Source: Hysterangium stoloniferum
Taxonomy: Eukaryota > Basidiomycota > Agaricomycetes > Hysterangiales > Hysterangiaceae
NCBI GenBank assembly: GCA_015178975.1
Contig: WHVD01000052.1
Coordinates: 310,001-374,000 of the forward strand
Reading direction: 5' to 3'
Length of the DNA: 64,000 nucleotides
In this document: one piece after another, positions 24,101 to 41,776 of the stretch
How the letters are laid out: each line of letters starts with the position of its first letter
How positions within the stretch are numbered: position 1 is the first letter of the stretch
Notes under the pieces: model-generated
Databases searched by the model: none
Seen by the model: only the letters and a program-made list of their open reading frames with translations
What the model was told of the DNA's origin: nothing
Position numbers and translations under genes: made by a program

Positions 24101-24305
24101 ATGGCTAGAGGATGATGACTGTAAAGATGCGGCATAGGGTGTTGCAACCAGGACCAGTGCTACCATGATTGAATCCGATGTTCTAGGTGCCTGGGAATGC
24201 TCATCTCGGTGCATTTCTTCACGTTCAGAAAGCCTTTGAGGAAGTCGGAAACATCACCTCAAGATAGGGCAGGGCATCTCATATGTTGTCCCTTGAGGTG
24301 ATATA

Positions 24306-24906
24306 CAGTCAACTCCCTCATAACCCATACCCCTTGGGATAGGCCCAGAAGTATGTGTTATGAGGGAGTATGTGTTATGAGGGAGTATGGGTTATGAGGG
24401 AGTATGGGTTATGAGGGAGTATGGGTTATGAGGGAGTATGGGTTATGAGGGAGTATGGGTTATGAGGGAGTATGGGTTATGAGGGAGTATGGTATGGGTT
24501 ATGAGGGAGTATGGTTATGAGGGAGTATGGGTTATGAGGGAGTATGGGTATGGGTATGAGGGAGTATGGGTTATGAGGGAGTATGGGTTATGAGGGAGTA
24601 TGGGTTATGAGGGAGTATGGGTTATGAGGGAGTATGGGTTATGAGGGAGTATGGGTTATGAGGGAGTATGGTTATGAGGGAGTATGGGTTATGAGGGAGT
24701 ATGGGTTATGAGGGAGTATGGGTTATGAGGGAGTATGGGTTATGAGGGAGTATGGGTTATGAGGGAGTATGGGTTATGAGGGAGTATGGGAGTATGGGTT
24801 ATGAGGGAGGTATTAAAACCTGCTTAGCAAATTGGTTGCTCCATAATTGTATGGGTTATGAGGGAGTATGGGTTATCTGGGGTATGGGTTATGAGGGAGT
24901 CGACTG
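24306..24906. mobile_element. TA-flanked MITE (Tc1/mariner-pogo type ends) filled with a minisatellite
   Basis: The left end reads CAGTCAACTCCCTCATAACC and the right end, in reverse complement, CAGTCGACTCCCTCATAACC, each continuing into CATACCCC. Both ends are flanked by TA (24304-24305 and 24907-24908), the target duplication of Tc1/mariner and pogo-like transposases. No transposase is encoded. The interior is almost entirely a tandem array of a 17-bp unit identical to part of the terminal repeat. Confidence 0.8.
24360..24900 (+). repeat. 17-bp minisatellite derived from the MITE terminal repeat
   Basis: The unit GGGTTATGAGGGAGTAT is repeated roughly 30 times with a few short or variant units (for example gtgttatg at the left edge and truncated units near 24490 and 24545). 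The unit is the reverse complement of the terminal repeat's inner ATACTCCCTCATAACCC-like sequence. A 40-bp non-repeat spacer sits near 24810-24850. Confidence 0.9.
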
Positions 24907-25107
24907 TATTCAGTTCTCAACTGTATACATCAGTAACATGGTATTGGCACCTGGATGGTCTTGGACGCTCCATGAGCGCTGGAGGCATGGGAGGAGGTCG
25001 CCCATTCTGGCAGCGTCGTGGAGTGTCTGGGATTACGTCGGAATGGCTTTGGATGTCCCGGATGACACTGGATCATACTGCCTCGTGTGTCATCCACATC
25101 CTCCTAT

Positions 25108-25377
25108 GTTGTCCACAGACTTCCAGTGTTGTCCACAGACTTCCAGTGTTGTCCACAGACTTCCAGTGTTGTCCACAGACTTCCAGTGTTGTCCACAGAC
25201 TTCCAGTGTTGTCCACAGACTTCCAGTGTCGTCCACAGACTTCCAGTGTCGTCCACAGACTTCCAGTGTCGTCCACAGACTTCCAGTGTCGTCCACAGAC
25301 TTCCAGTGTCGTCCACAGACTTCCAGTGTCGTCCACAGACTTCCAGTGTCGTCCACAGACTTCCAGTGTCGTCCACA
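25108..25377 (+). repeat. 20-bp minisatellite, 13.5 copies, two variant blocks
   Basis: The unit GTTGTCCACAGACTTCCAGT is repeated in perfect register. Units 1-6 (25108-25227) have GTT and units 7-14 (25228-25377) have GTC, with no mixing, and the rest of the unit is invariant. Since 20 is not a multiple of three, the array opens reading frames in several phases on both strands; none is taken as a gene. Confidence 0.92.
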
Positions 25378-31811: not shown

Positions 31812-32659
31812 TTTTAAGATCTAAGGTTAAATTAAGATCTAAGGTTAAATTAAGATCTAAGGTTAAATTAAGATCTAAGGTTAAATTAAGATCTAAGGTT
31901 AAATTAAGATCTAAGGTTAAATTAAGATCTAAGGTTAAATTAAGATTTAGGGTTAAAGACAAAGGGGAAGTGATGTTGGAGGACCAATGGGTATTTGTAC
32001 TCAACTGGGAAGACCAGTTAGTTCTACAAAACAAGTGGAGCTTGGCTTCAACTTATGTGTTGTGCCCTCACATGAACTGTTAGGGTGCTCTGGTATTTTG
32101 AGAAGAGCAAGTGGTATGATTTTGGACTGCAGACATTACTTATGTAGCTGAAATTAACTGGAAGGCTGAAATGCTAAGGGTTGTTGGAATAAGAGTCATA
32201 GCTGGCTGATGACATCTTCAAGAGAATGAGGAGAAAGCAAAGGGACTTCAACACAAAGGAGGGTAATATAAGTTGATATTAGAACTGAAGAACTATAGCA
32301 TACATGATAGAGTTTTCATACAAAGGTGTAATGGATGATCAGAAGGCTGATCAAGGAAGCAAGGAGTTGTGACAGGTCAAGGGAAGCAGGAAAGGAACAA
32401 GGATCAAACTAGAACTAAATGTGATGACACAGGTATTCTAAAGGTTGTGAGGTGGGAAATAATGGTTACATGTAGAACAGGTGATGGGAGAGCATTGGGA
32501 TGGTGATGGTATGGAATGACCCAAAGGGTAATCTTCAGAAAAACAGGTGTTGGGGTGCTGCAGGCAGTGACACCATGTCAGGGGTACCAATAGCATAGTG
32601 CTGGAGGGTTATGAGGGTAAGATCAAGTTGTGGGGGTCCAAATGGTAGGGATCCTAACA
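31812..32659 (-). mobile_element. Solo LTR (Ty3/gypsy-like), minus orientation, TSD CACTT
   Basis: On the minus strand it starts TGTTAGGATCCC and ends with a slightly worn TTAGATCTTAAAA (TTAACA in its relatives). CACTT flanks it at 31807-31811 and 32660-32664. It is about 100 bp longer than its relatives because an 18-bp minisatellite has grown inside it. No internal region is present. It is almost free of CpG. Confidence 0.75.
31816..31958 (+). repeat. 18-bp minisatellite inside the solo LTR
   Basis: Seven perfect copies of AAGATCTAAGGTTAAATT (31816-31941) and a diverged eighth. Other LTRs of the family have a single AAGATCTAA at this place. Confidence 0.92.
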
Positions 32660-35841: not shown

Positions 35842-37008
35842 GTGGAGATTACCAGCGATGCTGAAGAAGTAACTGAAGCAACCGATCCCGAAGCAACTGA
35901 GGAGATTAATAATCAACCAGTTACGGAACACGAACCCGAGGATGGCAACCAACCTCAGGCTAGTGGCTCCAAGAAGTCCGCAAAAAAGAAACCGGCTCTC
36001 ACCCTGAAGAGACATGGGAATTGTTTTCAGGTACTCTAGGATCCCTTAACGAATTCCTTAGAAGCAATATCAAGGAAAAGGAACCTGGGCAAACCCGAGT
36101 CAACAAACCTGAGCCATTCACTGGCTCAAACCCGAAGAAATTGCCGACATTTCTTATGCAATGTCGATTCAACTTTCAGGACCGCCCGGCTGCATTCGCA
36201 ACGGATGACCGAAAGGTAAACTTTGCACTCTCATACCTTAAGGATTCCGCAGCAGCCTGGTTTGAACCCGCATTCTCTGGCCTCACCTCCGAAGACCCTG
36301 ATTGGCTTCACGATTGGGATGCCTTTGTCGAGGAACTCGAAACCAACTTCGGTCCCTACGACCAAACCGGCGATGCCGAAACCGCGCTTTCTAACCTCAA
36401 AATGAAAGACACTCAGCACATCACCGATTACATCGTCCAGTTCAACAACCTCGCCGCACGTTGCGACTGGGGGGATTCCGCCCTCCATTACCAGTTTTAC
36501 TCCGGCCTTCCATCTCGCCTCAAAGATGAAGTTTCTAAAGGAGAGACCGGCAAGCCGAAGACCCTCCCTCTCATGCGTCTGAAAGCCCAAAACGCAGACG
36601 CCCGATACTGGGAATGACGTTCGGAAATTAGTCGCGAAAACCCATCGGACAAGAAATTGTCGGACAATAAGAACACCAACAAGTCTGGTAATCAAAACAC
36701 CAACAACAGTGGCAACTCGACCTCCGATAAGAAGTCCAAAAACAAAGGGGCTAACGACAAAAAAAGGCAAGGGAAAACAGTCGAATAAGTCTCAAGACAA
36801 AGACAAACCCGACTTAACCGGCAAACTCGGCTCCGATGGCAAGCTCCTACCACAGGAAAAGCAACGCCGAATGAACAACAACCTTTGTTTGTTGTGCGCA
36901 GATCCTGGACACCGAGTCGCTGCATGCCCAAAAGCCACAAACGCCCAATCGGCCAATACAGCCACGACCTCACAACCGGCCAAGCCAGCTGAGTCGAAAA
37001 AAGATTAA
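35842..37008 (+). mobile_element. gag region of the gypsy fossil
   Basis: A capsid-like block (FALSYLKDSAAAWFEP, followed by a DWDAFVEELETNFGP block) is followed by a basic, lysine-rich stretch and a CCHC zinc knuckle (CLLCADPGHRVAAC). These are typical of Ty3/gypsy gag. The region is broken. Confidence 0.8.
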
Positions 37009-37025
37009 GCAACTCTCTGGATTCC

Positions 37026-40000
37026 GTGCATTTGGAGAGTTGTGTTGAATCTCCTCGCACAGCAGAAAATTGTCACCTTAACGCATCCGCCTTGTATGAT
37101 CCTAATTCTTTGTTCATAAACCTTACTTCGGAACCTCTCGGGAGCCTCACTTTTCGAGCTCTCATAGATTCAGGTTCAACCCATTGTTTTATAGATACAA
37201 GTTTTTCCCGAAAAAATCAGTTAAAAACCTATGCAATAGATCCAATTCCGCTCCGACTCTTTGATGGTACCTCAAACTCCGTAATCTCGCAAGCCTGCGA
37301 ACTCCGACTTCGGTTCCTATGTGGAACCTGTCAGACAGTTACATTTTTTGTAAGACAGTTGGACCCGAGTTGCTCCGTGGTTCTAGGACATAACTGGCTC
37401 ACCCGCTACAATCCATTGATTGACTGGGTATTGGGCAGTATTCATTTCCGAACCCCATCGGCACCCGATACGACTGGTCCGTTTCTGCCTGTTTCGGCAA
37501 ATATGGCCTCTACAGCACCTCCGGCCCAGTGGCAAATCCGAGCTCTCTGCCACCCGTCTCTCTAATAAACGCCACAGCTTTTATGAGAGCCATCAAGTTG
37601 GACGGCTCCCGAGCATTTACAGTCAATCTTAAAGTTGACGAAGTCACCGGTCGCTTTGCATCCCCGGTGGCTGAACCGATCGCAGATTTGGAAGGTGTTC
37701 CCAAAAAATACCATGAATTTGCAGATGTCTTCAGTAAACAAAAAGCAGATTGACTCGCCCCTCACAGGCCTTACGATTTGAAAATTGATATTGAAGATGG
37801 TTCACATCCGCCCCTAGGCCCGGTTTATCCTCTCTCGCAGTCCAAATTATCGGCTATCCGAGATTTCTTGGACAAACATTTGGCTATAGGTTTTATCCGA
37901 CCCTCAAAGTCTCCTTATGGAGCCCCTGTCCTATTCGTTCGGAAAAAAGATGGTTCCCTTTGACTTTGCGTTGACTTTCGAGGACTAAATGCGATCACTC
38001 GAAAAGACAAGTACCCATTACCACTAATCTCCGATTTACTCGATGCCCCTCGGAAGGCCCGAATCTATACAAAGATAGATCTCAAGCATGCCTATCATTT
38101 GGTTCGGATCGCCGAAGGTGACGAATGGAAAACGGCTTTTCGCACTCGCTATGGCTCCTTTGAATGGTTAGTAATGCCTTTCGGCCTCACCAACGCTCCA
38201 TCGGTCTTTCAACGTTTCATCAACGATGTTTTTTCCGGCCTCCTCGACGTTTTTGTCATTGTGTACTTAGATGACATCCTCATATTCTCCAAAGACCCTA
38301 CACTTCATGATGAACACGTTCGTGAAGTTCTCCAAAGACTCCGAAAACATGGTCTTTTTGCAAATGGTAAAAAATGTTCTTTTGATGTCGACACAGTTGA
38401 ATATTTAGGGTTTATGATGGGACCTGACGGTCTCCACATGGACAACTCTAAGATTCAAGTCATTCAAGATTGGCCGGAACCCCGAAAGGTTAAGGATATT
38501 CAATCCTTTTTAGGCTTCGCCAATTTTTATCGTCGTTTCATTCACAACTACTCACAAATTACCATTCCGCTCACTCATCTTACTTGTAAAGATGCCCCGT
38601 GGAATTTCTCCGAAGAATGCCGATCGGCATTCCAGGAATTGAAAAGTGCATTTACATCTGCCCCTATTTTGTCACATTGGAAGCCCGATGTTCAACTCAT
38701 CGTGGAAACTGATGCTTTGGACTATGCGCTTGCCTCGATATATTCCATTCTGGACACCGATGGTGAAGTACACCCAGTAGCTTTTCTGTCTCACACATTT
38801 TCGGCACCCGAACTCAACTATGACGTTCACGATAAGGAACTACTCGCAATATTTGAAGCTTTCAAGACATGGTGACATTATTTGGAAGGCTCGGCCCACC
38901 CGGTAGATGTTATTACAGACCACAAAAATTTAGTTTACTTTTCAACCACAAAAATTCTCACCCATCGACAAGCTCGATGGTCCGAATACCTCTCTGCTTT
39001 CAACATGGTAATTCGGTTCTGTCCCGGCCGCCTTGGTGGAAAACCCGACGCTATGACTAGATGATGGGAGATCTATCCTAAAGAGGGGAGTAGCGACTAC
39101 GCCACAGTTAATCCGCATAATTTCAAGCCTATGTTTTCATCGGAACAACTGTCCGCGTCTATCCGAGCCACTTACCTCATTCATCCAGTCTTGCGAAGTG
39201 TTATCCTTATGGATACCAAAAAATTACATCAAGACATTCTATCGGCAATTCCATTAGACCCAGTCACCAAAGCACACCTCGATAACCCATCCGACCCCGG
39301 TCAACCCCGATGGTCATTAGACTCACAAGGTTTCATTAGACTTGACAATCGCATTTATGTACCGGACTCCCACACCCTTCGGCTGCGAATCCTACAACAT
39401 AAGCACGACCACCCAATCTCGGGACATTTCAGCCTCAATAAAACCCTCTCACTCATTAGAAGAGAATATACATGGCCCGGCATCCGAGATTTCGTTAAGC
39501 ACTATTGTAAATCTTGTACTACGTGTTTACACTCTAAATCACAGCGACACAAACCATATGGCCTACTCAAACAATTACCAATACCGGAAAAACCTTGGAA
39601 CTCGATTTCTATGGATTTCATCGAGCACCTACCGGTATCCGAAGGTCACACAGCAATCCTAGTTGTTGTGGATCGGCTCACAAAGCAAAGTATTTTCATT
39701 CCAACATATGACACGATAACATCTGTACAGTTAGCTGAATTATTCGTCACCCATGTATTTTCCAAGCATGGTGTTCCGTCGCATGTCACATCCGATCACG
39801 GATCCGAGTTTGTCTCTCACTTCTTTAGGTCACTCGGGAAAGCACTAGACATGAAGCTACACTTCACTTCTGGCTATCACCCGGAAGGCGATGGCCAAAC
39901 TGAACGCATGAATCAAACCTTGGAACAATACATCCGTGTCTATTGCAACTATCAACAAGACAATTGGAAATCACTACTACCGCTAGCCGAATTCGCATAT

Positions 40001-40693
40001 AACAATGCACCAAATGCCACTACTGGCATCTCGCCTTTCTTCGCAAATAAAGGCTACAACCCCAACATCGCAATCCACCCGGAACGCGATCTCGCATCCC
40101 CCTGTGCTCAAGACTTTGTTATAAACCTTGACGAGCTACATCAAGAACTTCGTAAAACTATCGCAATGGCTCAAGAACGATACCAACGGTCTGCAGATAA
40201 GAACCGACTTCCGCCTCCTGACTTTAAGATCGGAGACCGAGTATTCGTTAAAGCCGAGTTTTTCAGAACTACTAGAGCTTCTAAGAAGCTCTCTGAAAGA
40301 TATTTAGGTCCTTTTGAAGTTATAGCACAAGCCGGCACACTTTCATGGACGCTTCGGCTCCCCGACAACATGCGTGCAGTGCACCCGGTATTTCATGTAT
40401 CTATGTTAGAACCTTGTGTTCCTAACAGTATACCGGATCACATACAACCACCACCTCCACCCATGATTATTGATGGGGAACCCGAATTTGAGATATCAGA
40501 GATTCTAGACTCAAAAATCGACAATCGCCGACACTCATGCAAATTACTTTATTTGGTCAAATGGGCTGGCTATGAAGGTACAGATGAAGAAACTTTATGG
40601 ATCCTAGCTACAGAGCTCGGTAATGCCTCGGAAATCGTTCTAGGGTTTCACCAAGCTTATCCGAACAAACCCGGTCCTCTCAATTCTTTATAA
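37026..40693 (+). mobile_element. pol region of the gypsy fossil (PR-RT-RH-INT-chromodomain)
   Basis: Visible blocks, in order, are an aspartic protease with ALIDSGSTHCFID (near 37160-37200), reverse transcriptase with VIVYLDDILIFSKD (near 38260), RNase H with an ETDALDYAL-type block (near 38710), an integrase zinc-binding HHCC region (near 39390-39540), a core with SDHGSEF (near 39800) and a chromodomain with YLVKWAGY (near 40550). The integrase-chromodomain portion is the longest open part. The region as a whole is broken. Confidence 0.88.
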
Positions 40694-40789
40694 GTCTATC
40701 ATGTGGTATCCGACCTTTTTCCGACTATGCCTTATGTTTTCACACTATGATTTGTTTGTTTTAAAGAAAAACTGATATATTTTTACTAT

Positions 40790-41776
40790 CTAAGTTTCTC
40801 CCTCTACAACTTCTCCCTCCTCCCCGGCCTCCAAACCCTCCCCCGCACCGACAGCCACCAATACCGCACCACTGACCTTTTCCGACACCCCAATCTCGTG
40901 CCCAATTCCATCACAACTCGAGACTTCCAAATACTGCTCAAGTTGACCACCGAGAGACTCGATAACACTGGTCTGTTTCTCCAGCCCAACGCCCAAGAGT
41001 CGCAATTGCTCGGTCATGAGCCCTTGTTGTCGCAACATCTCGAATCGGAACCGAGTCATCTCCGAGAAGTAGGTCTGCATAAGGCGGTTTTGCTCTTCTA
41101 GAGCATCGGCCTGTCGCTCCTGGAACGAACCATCGGCCCCCAGGAAAACACACCCAAGCTTCTGATCGGCGCACTCTTGACAAGTGCGGCCCCGACCATT
41201 GGCCTGGGGATGACAGGTTCGAACCCGTTTCGTGCACCGATTGCACTTAGGGTCATTTCCGGGCCCCACCTTGGGGGCCTGCTTTTGTTTCTATAGGAAA
41301 ATTATTTAGAAAAAAGTTTTTACTTAGGGAAACCGAACCCACCTTGGGGCTCGACGGCCCCGGTGCATCCTCCTCGTCCTCCTCTCCCTCTTCGTCATCA
41401 GACTCCGAAGGCGTCACAGCCTTGCGCTAACAAATATTGTCAGTAAGGTTCGCAAAAGATACCAGAGCCGACTTACCTTTCCCTCCCACTTCTTTTTCAC
41501 CGCCTCCTCCCATGCCCAATCGGCCTCCTGCTGCTTGTTCTTTGCAAGCACTGCTTCCCAGTGCTTGCGCGCGGCCTCTTCTGCCGCCTGTTTCTTCTCC
41601 TCAGCCTTGATGGCCGCCAACTCCTCCTTCTCCTTCCGCTCCTCCTCTTTACGCGCCCTTTTCTTCTGCTCAAGAATACGCCAACGCTCCTTCGCGTTCG
41701 CCGTACCACTCGGCACCGACATGGGCGCAACTGTTAACCTAACCGGGAAGGGTTTTGAACCCAAGCCTATGGTCAT
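40790..41776 (-). mobile_element. Antisense coding region inside the gypsy fossil, Zn2Cys6-like
   Basis: Between pol and the 3' LTR the minus strand holds two long open stretches (41414-41776 and 40790-41269), with a short acidic one between them, separated by intron-like gaps. The upstream part is a Lys/Glu/Ala-rich helical region. The downstream part has cysteines spaced C-x2-C-x6-C-x10-C-x2-C-x6-C (CNRC, RTC, RTC QEC, LGC), which fits the fungal Zn2Cys6 spacing, followed by a coiled-coil-like helix. It is part of the element, not a host gene. Its role is unknown; antisense ORFs at this position are known in some plant Ty3/gypsy elements. Confidence 0.55.

Follow-up and report, generated by a model that had tools for sequence, protein, structure and literature searches.

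In-place growth of a 17-bp minisatellite inside a short pogo-type MITE of Hysterangium stoloniferum

How does a short transposable element come to be filled with tandem copies of a sequence that resembles its own terminus? The question is raised by a 601-bp terminal-inverted-repeat (TIR) element at positions 24306-24906 of a 64,000-nucleotide stretch of the Hysterangium stoloniferum genome (contig WHVD01000052.1, positions 310,001 to 374,000), which is referred to here as the window. Comparison with related elements of the same genome makes it very probable that the left pair of 17-bp units (iterons) of a 177-bp pogo-type MITE grew in place to about 26 units, mainly by slippage and with unequal exchange as a likely contributor.

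Anatomy of the element and composition of its array

The element is flanked by TA on both sides, and its terminal arms (24303-24333 and 24879-24909, 31 nt each) are 97% complementary. The array unit matches the inner part of the TIR, its reverse complement being found at 24314-24330 (Table 1). About 30 units are present in total, namely about 26 in the array, three at the right end and one in inverted orientation in the left TIR. The original prediction of a MITE whose ends and TA duplication are intact and which carries about 30 copies of a TIR-like 17-bp unit was thus borne out. It had also described the interior as consisting of the array; this holds for the bulk of the units, but a 20-nt loop and a 40-bp core remain on either side of them, as in the related short copies described below.

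Table 1. Features of the element and of the neighbouring array, with positions in the window
Feature	Position	Strand	Basis
Left TA target-site duplication	24304..24305	.	Empty-site dinucleotide TA in L122 and L124, TG in L123
Left TIR with one inverted 17-bp unit (24314-24330)	24306..24333	+	Arm complementarity, unit matches
Loop of 20 nt between inverted TIR unit and array	24331..24350	+	Layout common to siblings and transposase-bearing elements
Array of about 26 units of 17 bp	24351..24808	+	Usual sibling has two units
Non-repeated core of 40 bp	24809..24848	+	Common to siblings
Right end with three tandem units (24849; 24866, of 16 bp; 24882), the last inside the right TIR	24849..24906	+	
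Right TA target-site duplication	24907..24908	.	
20-bp array of 13 units, in another repeat starting at about 24928; outside the MITE	25107..25377	+	TRF, relatives

The units of the array are arranged head-to-tail. Of the 26, 21 are perfect copies of GTATGGGTTATGAGGGA and two carry a T at position 6; a further two (at 24509 and 24666) are 16 bp long, and the remaining one is an irregular block of 22 bp. Partial units, 5 and 8 bp long, come on top of this count and break at GTATG and GGG matches. TRF reports 25.5 copies of 17 bp with 94% matches and 5% indels. When the window was searched with the 18-mer CTCCCTCATAACCCATAC at up to three mismatches, all 26 matches fell inside the element, against 0.08 expected by chance and none of 100 shuffles reaching 26, so that a chance origin of the unit matches is excluded. 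The units are homogeneous, variation inside the array being limited to insertions and deletions, and blocks of exactly six perfect units occur three times. The array's left edge is a T-type unit, of which there are now two, and a G-type unit lies beside the core, which is the order seen in the siblings. An error of assembly or sequencing that distorted the array length or the irregular units is very unlikely: tandem arrays are error-prone and misreading could account for the single bases missing from GGG runs, but the presence of two unit types in sibling order together with several irregular units within the array argues against it.

Insertion site and sibling elements

The search covered the whole genome (111 Mb in 554 contigs). 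The left flank has 39 other matches of 63-71% identity, and all three paralogous sites examined (L122, L123 and L124) run from the left to the right flank without the element, L122 reading GAGGCGACATATTCAGTCCTCAAC. These empty sites support an insertion of the element, with TA as its target. Flank homology is clear for about another 20 bp to the right, up to the start of a different repeat.

Matches to the 17-bp unit with up to two mismatches number at least 88 on the forward and at least 107 on the reverse strand, about 25 of them in the window array, compared to 20 and 43 for the same pattern read backwards. The terminus (up to three mismatches) was found at least 89 and at least 80 times, with 5 and 7 matches for the controls. 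Use of the short element L012 as a query gave 71 matches among the best 40 of 82 candidates scored, several per locus. Four siblings (L012, L028, L024 and L032) measure 177 bp and one (L011) 176 bp, and all five are bounded by TA on both sides; L021, also of 177 bp, has GA on its left side. With TIRs, a TA duplication and empty sites, and with several short copies that have no room for a transposase gene, the window element is a MITE.

Sibling ends and interior are those of the window element, save that two tandem units stand in place of 26. When its array is reduced to a single T-type and a single G-type unit, the window element agrees with L012 at 172 of 177 positions of an ungapped alignment, with L028 at 171/177, with L024 and L032 at 173/177 each and with L011 at 170/176. 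Array variation by insertion and deletion only, set against these 4-6 differing sites, suggests recent growth or homogenisation.

Array length was compared between copies with the same termini, as proposed in the original prediction. Among 22 scorable sibling loci, which were drawn from the search matches and represent part of the family, 19 hold two units, two hold one (L029 and L047) and one holds four (L015). The comparison took in 36 loci and gave 30 rows. Automatic unit numbers proved unreliable for siblings, and the segments themselves were read instead, a length of 19 nt being counted as one unit, 31-50 nt as two and 74 nt as four. Five rows without a core (L013, L016, L024 at 314, L076 and L086) were left out. 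So were L018, which lacks the MITE hairpin, L019, whose array region contains a foreign insertion, and the second of the L048 rows. The counted loci include the degenerate L036 (31 nt) and L048 with a 13-nt insertion; L079, outside the 22-locus count, has two units. The comparison is within one genome, in which steps between 4 and 26 units were not seen.

Two siblings deserve separate mention. L015 (130-380) carries four diverged units in place of two and represents an intermediate array. L016 (310-397) is an 87-bp version of the MITE in which two units directly abut the right terminus, as if the core had been lost by deletion between units.

Since the siblings combine these ends and this interior with two units, an ancestral pair of iterons was the seed from which the array expanded in place. 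A different interior in the siblings would have spoken for insertion of an unrelated array, and this was not encountered. That a ready-made array was inserted, or that it was produced by rolling-circle replication from the TIR, is extremely improbable: the seed pair lies at the same place in the siblings, on which ground insertion of an unrelated array was rejected, and three tandem units with up to three mismatches match the genome 14 times, always in the window array. Free arrays of this kind outside the element were therefore not found in the genome at this threshold, which diverged arrays such as that of L015 escape. No evidence of rolling replication was seen, and the proposed start of growth at the TIR itself is not supported, the seed being the two-unit tandem that already stood behind the TIR, in the MITE family as well as in its transposase-bearing relatives.

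Transposase-bearing relatives and the role of the units

The transposase domain DDE_1 (PF03184) matches at 79 places in the genome. Among 20 loci listed, seven (L049-L055) are mutually 96.5-99.0% identical elements, 2598-2624 bp long, whose ends are recognisable and share the plan of the MITE: TIR, loop and two tandem units at the same offsets. In L049, taken as representative, units lie at -57, -40 and -24 from the right end, with further ones at -110, -134 and -160. The same end plan, with differences, is found in L059 (2551 bp), L063 (1953 bp), L065 (2431 bp) and L069 (5197 bp); at the cut-off used, L059 and L065 showed no second left unit, and L065 neither the -24 unit nor the inverted one. 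All 11 full-length elements have TA at both ends. One of them, the 5.2-kb L069 (335-5532), combines related ends and separate DDE_1 pieces with a 19-bp array of its own of 8.3 copies.

A domain search identified HTH_Tnp_Tc5 (E 1e-07; tested on L049 only) and DDE_1 (E 1.2e-39) in L049, on two ORFs in different frames that may be separated by an intron or a frameshift. The second and third D, which are presumed to be catalytic, are separated by 30 residues. TA duplications, DDE_1, HTH_Tnp_Tc5, the 30-residue D spacing and a length of about 2.6 kb are all shared with the pogo superfamily, so that by domain content and layout these elements fit that group, as far as the accessible part of its description goes (PMC7386202); that part makes no mention of the multi-iteron ends seen here. 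Agreement of the MITE ends with those of the 11 full-length elements ranges from 56/76 to 68/82 positions at the left end and from 68/95 to 78/91 at the right, none being identical. These elements are thus relatives and not the direct parent, and a parent with identical ends was not found among the 11 compared.

Several features make it plausible that the 17-bp units are transposase-binding sites. The relatives encode HTH_Tnp_Tc5 along with DDE_1, and the units are better conserved than the spacers. Right-end units plus terminus of the MITE agree with L049, L059, L063 and L065 at 49, 56, 48 and 47 of 58 positions, respectively, and the adjacent right spacer at 22, 22, 20 and 23 of 37. On the left side, agreement with the same four elements is 29-30/34 in the iterons and 22-25/28 in the TIR, against 6-13/17 in the loop and 8-13/16 in the stretch beyond. 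The higher conservation could also stem from homogenisation among units.

Growth of the array, other arrays and known systems

The neighbourhood of the element holds a second expanded array, which belongs to another repeat (Table 1). In 20 relatives of that repeat, the 20-bp unit is absent from two, in which the segment may simply be missing, and present once in twelve, twice in five and three times in one. Compared with these counts of 0-3, the 13 units in the window indicate growth in place here too, so that expansion occurred in two unrelated repeats about 300 bp from each other. Two of the relatives, L111 (1086-1235) and L112 (373-459), contain 19-bp arrays of a different unit (7.9 and 4.6 copies), so that array growth in this repeat family is not confined to a single site.

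Elsewhere in the window, an 18-bp array of 8 units (31814-31957) lies at the edge of another dispersed repeat, for which 49 other rows were listed; of three relatives examined, a single unit is present in one and, at the cut-off used, no unit in the other two. A Ty3-type retrotransposon occupies 36021-40693, with gag, protease, RT/RNase H, integrase and a weak chromodomain match on separate ORFs; a DUF6699 match was found besides, and a plasmid search with window positions 38000-41000 yielded nothing.

In 185,977 bases of other loci, a sample that is biased toward the families studied and partly overlapping, 12 arrays were detected (period of at least 8, at least 4 copies). Five of the 12 have at least 8 copies, ten have periods of 16-21, one is the sibling L015 and two lie in relatives of the neighbouring repeat. 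Of all arrays seen, that of the MITE is the richest in copies; it is part of a general array-growing tendency in the sampled loci. Because the neighbouring unrelated repeat expanded alike, no TIR-specific or transposase-specific cause is needed.

This bears on a transposase-induced origin, in which double-strand-break repair at excision would have copied the iterons many times. The near-identity of the seven transposase-bearing copies suggests recent activity of such elements, but growth of the neighbouring array outside the element and retention of two units in 19 of the 22 siblings render this route very unlikely. Growth driven by G-quadruplexes was also considered. Non-overlapping motifs (G3, loops of 1-7) on the G-rich strand number 12 in the window element and one in L012. 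The neighbouring array has no motif on either strand, for which reason G-quadruplexes were rejected as a common cause. Loops of 5-6 nt would in addition be weak drivers of instability.

The internal structure of the array separates slippage from unequal sister exchange or gene conversion poorly. Slippage is expected to leave partial units that stop at microhomologies, and those of 5 and 8 bp do so; the three six-unit blocks are better explained by unequal exchange, which suggests that slippage was accompanied by some exchange. These blocks and the two 16-bp variants resemble multi-unit duplications, the units are homogeneous and the 87-bp L016 resembles a loss between units, so that growth mainly through exchange or conversion is possible, if rather doubtful in view of the microhomologies.

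The following account of growth from the iteron pair is very probable. A 177-bp non-autonomous MITE keeps both ends of a TA-targeting transposon of the pogo superfamily, and with them the 17-bp iterons, of which a tandem pair lies behind the left TIR and a set of three at the right end; they probably serve as transposase-binding sites. In one copy, the left pair expanded in place to about 26 units, most likely by ordinary minisatellite dynamics, with replication slippage predominating and unequal exchange probably contributing. The long array itself, we infer, has no present function. It is decidedly unlikely, though conceivable, that it is a nascent satellite akin to CENP-B boxes, in which about 26 putative iterons for a pogo-type (CENP-B-related) transposase, gathered in one element, would soak up transposase or seed local chromatin, and that the two unrelated arrays about 300 bp apart mark a cis-acting expansion hotspot. 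The Pfam search of the L049 ORFs gave no CENP-B_N match at E up to 0.05, and a sequence search of both ORFs against solved structures returned unrelated proteins only (best E 0.24 and 0.12), thus providing no structural tie to CENP-B.

One-, two- and four-unit siblings, two-unit transposase-bearing relatives and empty sites share a single genome, so that they offer a clean before-and-after case in which one can follow directly how iterons of a transposon end gave birth to a minisatellite. By this example, tandem iterons at the ends of transposons would offer arrays a ready-made seed. Growth requires no new mechanism and follows a known route from transposons to minisatellites.

Arrays born inside MITEs or TIRs are established, according to the accessible parts of the respective reports, by Tetris TIR-220 (PMC4079207), Xstir and miDNA4 (PMC9659126, PMC12628747) and BrickBuilt (PMC4596501). 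The window array is likewise a MITE-derived minisatellite, its unit coming from the element and being amplified inside it. In Tetris of Drosophila virilis, as far as that account reaches, the tandem unit likewise has sequence in common with the terminal domain and is present in varying number within the element, and the authors suggest that tandem units provide extra transposase sites; Tetris differs in being a foldback element with a 220-bp unit and longer satellite arrays, whereas here a 17-bp unit expanded in one copy of a pogo-type MITE (PMC4079207). Xstir (from the Xmix MITE) and miDNA4 of Xenopus are similar in that tandem repeats grow inside a MITE. The source of Xstir is a TIR according to a review table and miDNA4 is a Tc1/mariner MITE; as far as the two reviews go, both arrays are lineage-wide, in contrast to the one copy found here beside siblings still in the two-unit state (PMC9659126, PMC12628747). 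The BrickBuilt MITE of Porphyromonas gingivalis resembles the present case in its 23-nt minisatellite, whose unit number varies between strains, and differs in being bacterial, in its IS5-type TIRs and in its 19 copies; the available portion of that study does not describe a derivation of the 23-nt unit from the TIR (PMC4596501). In a search of the open-access literature, no listed title dealt with a minisatellite in a fungal MITE of pogo type. The present case is marked by the pogo-type MITE as host of the array, the 17-bp unit, the restriction of the expansion to one copy and the two-unit state that is still present beside it.
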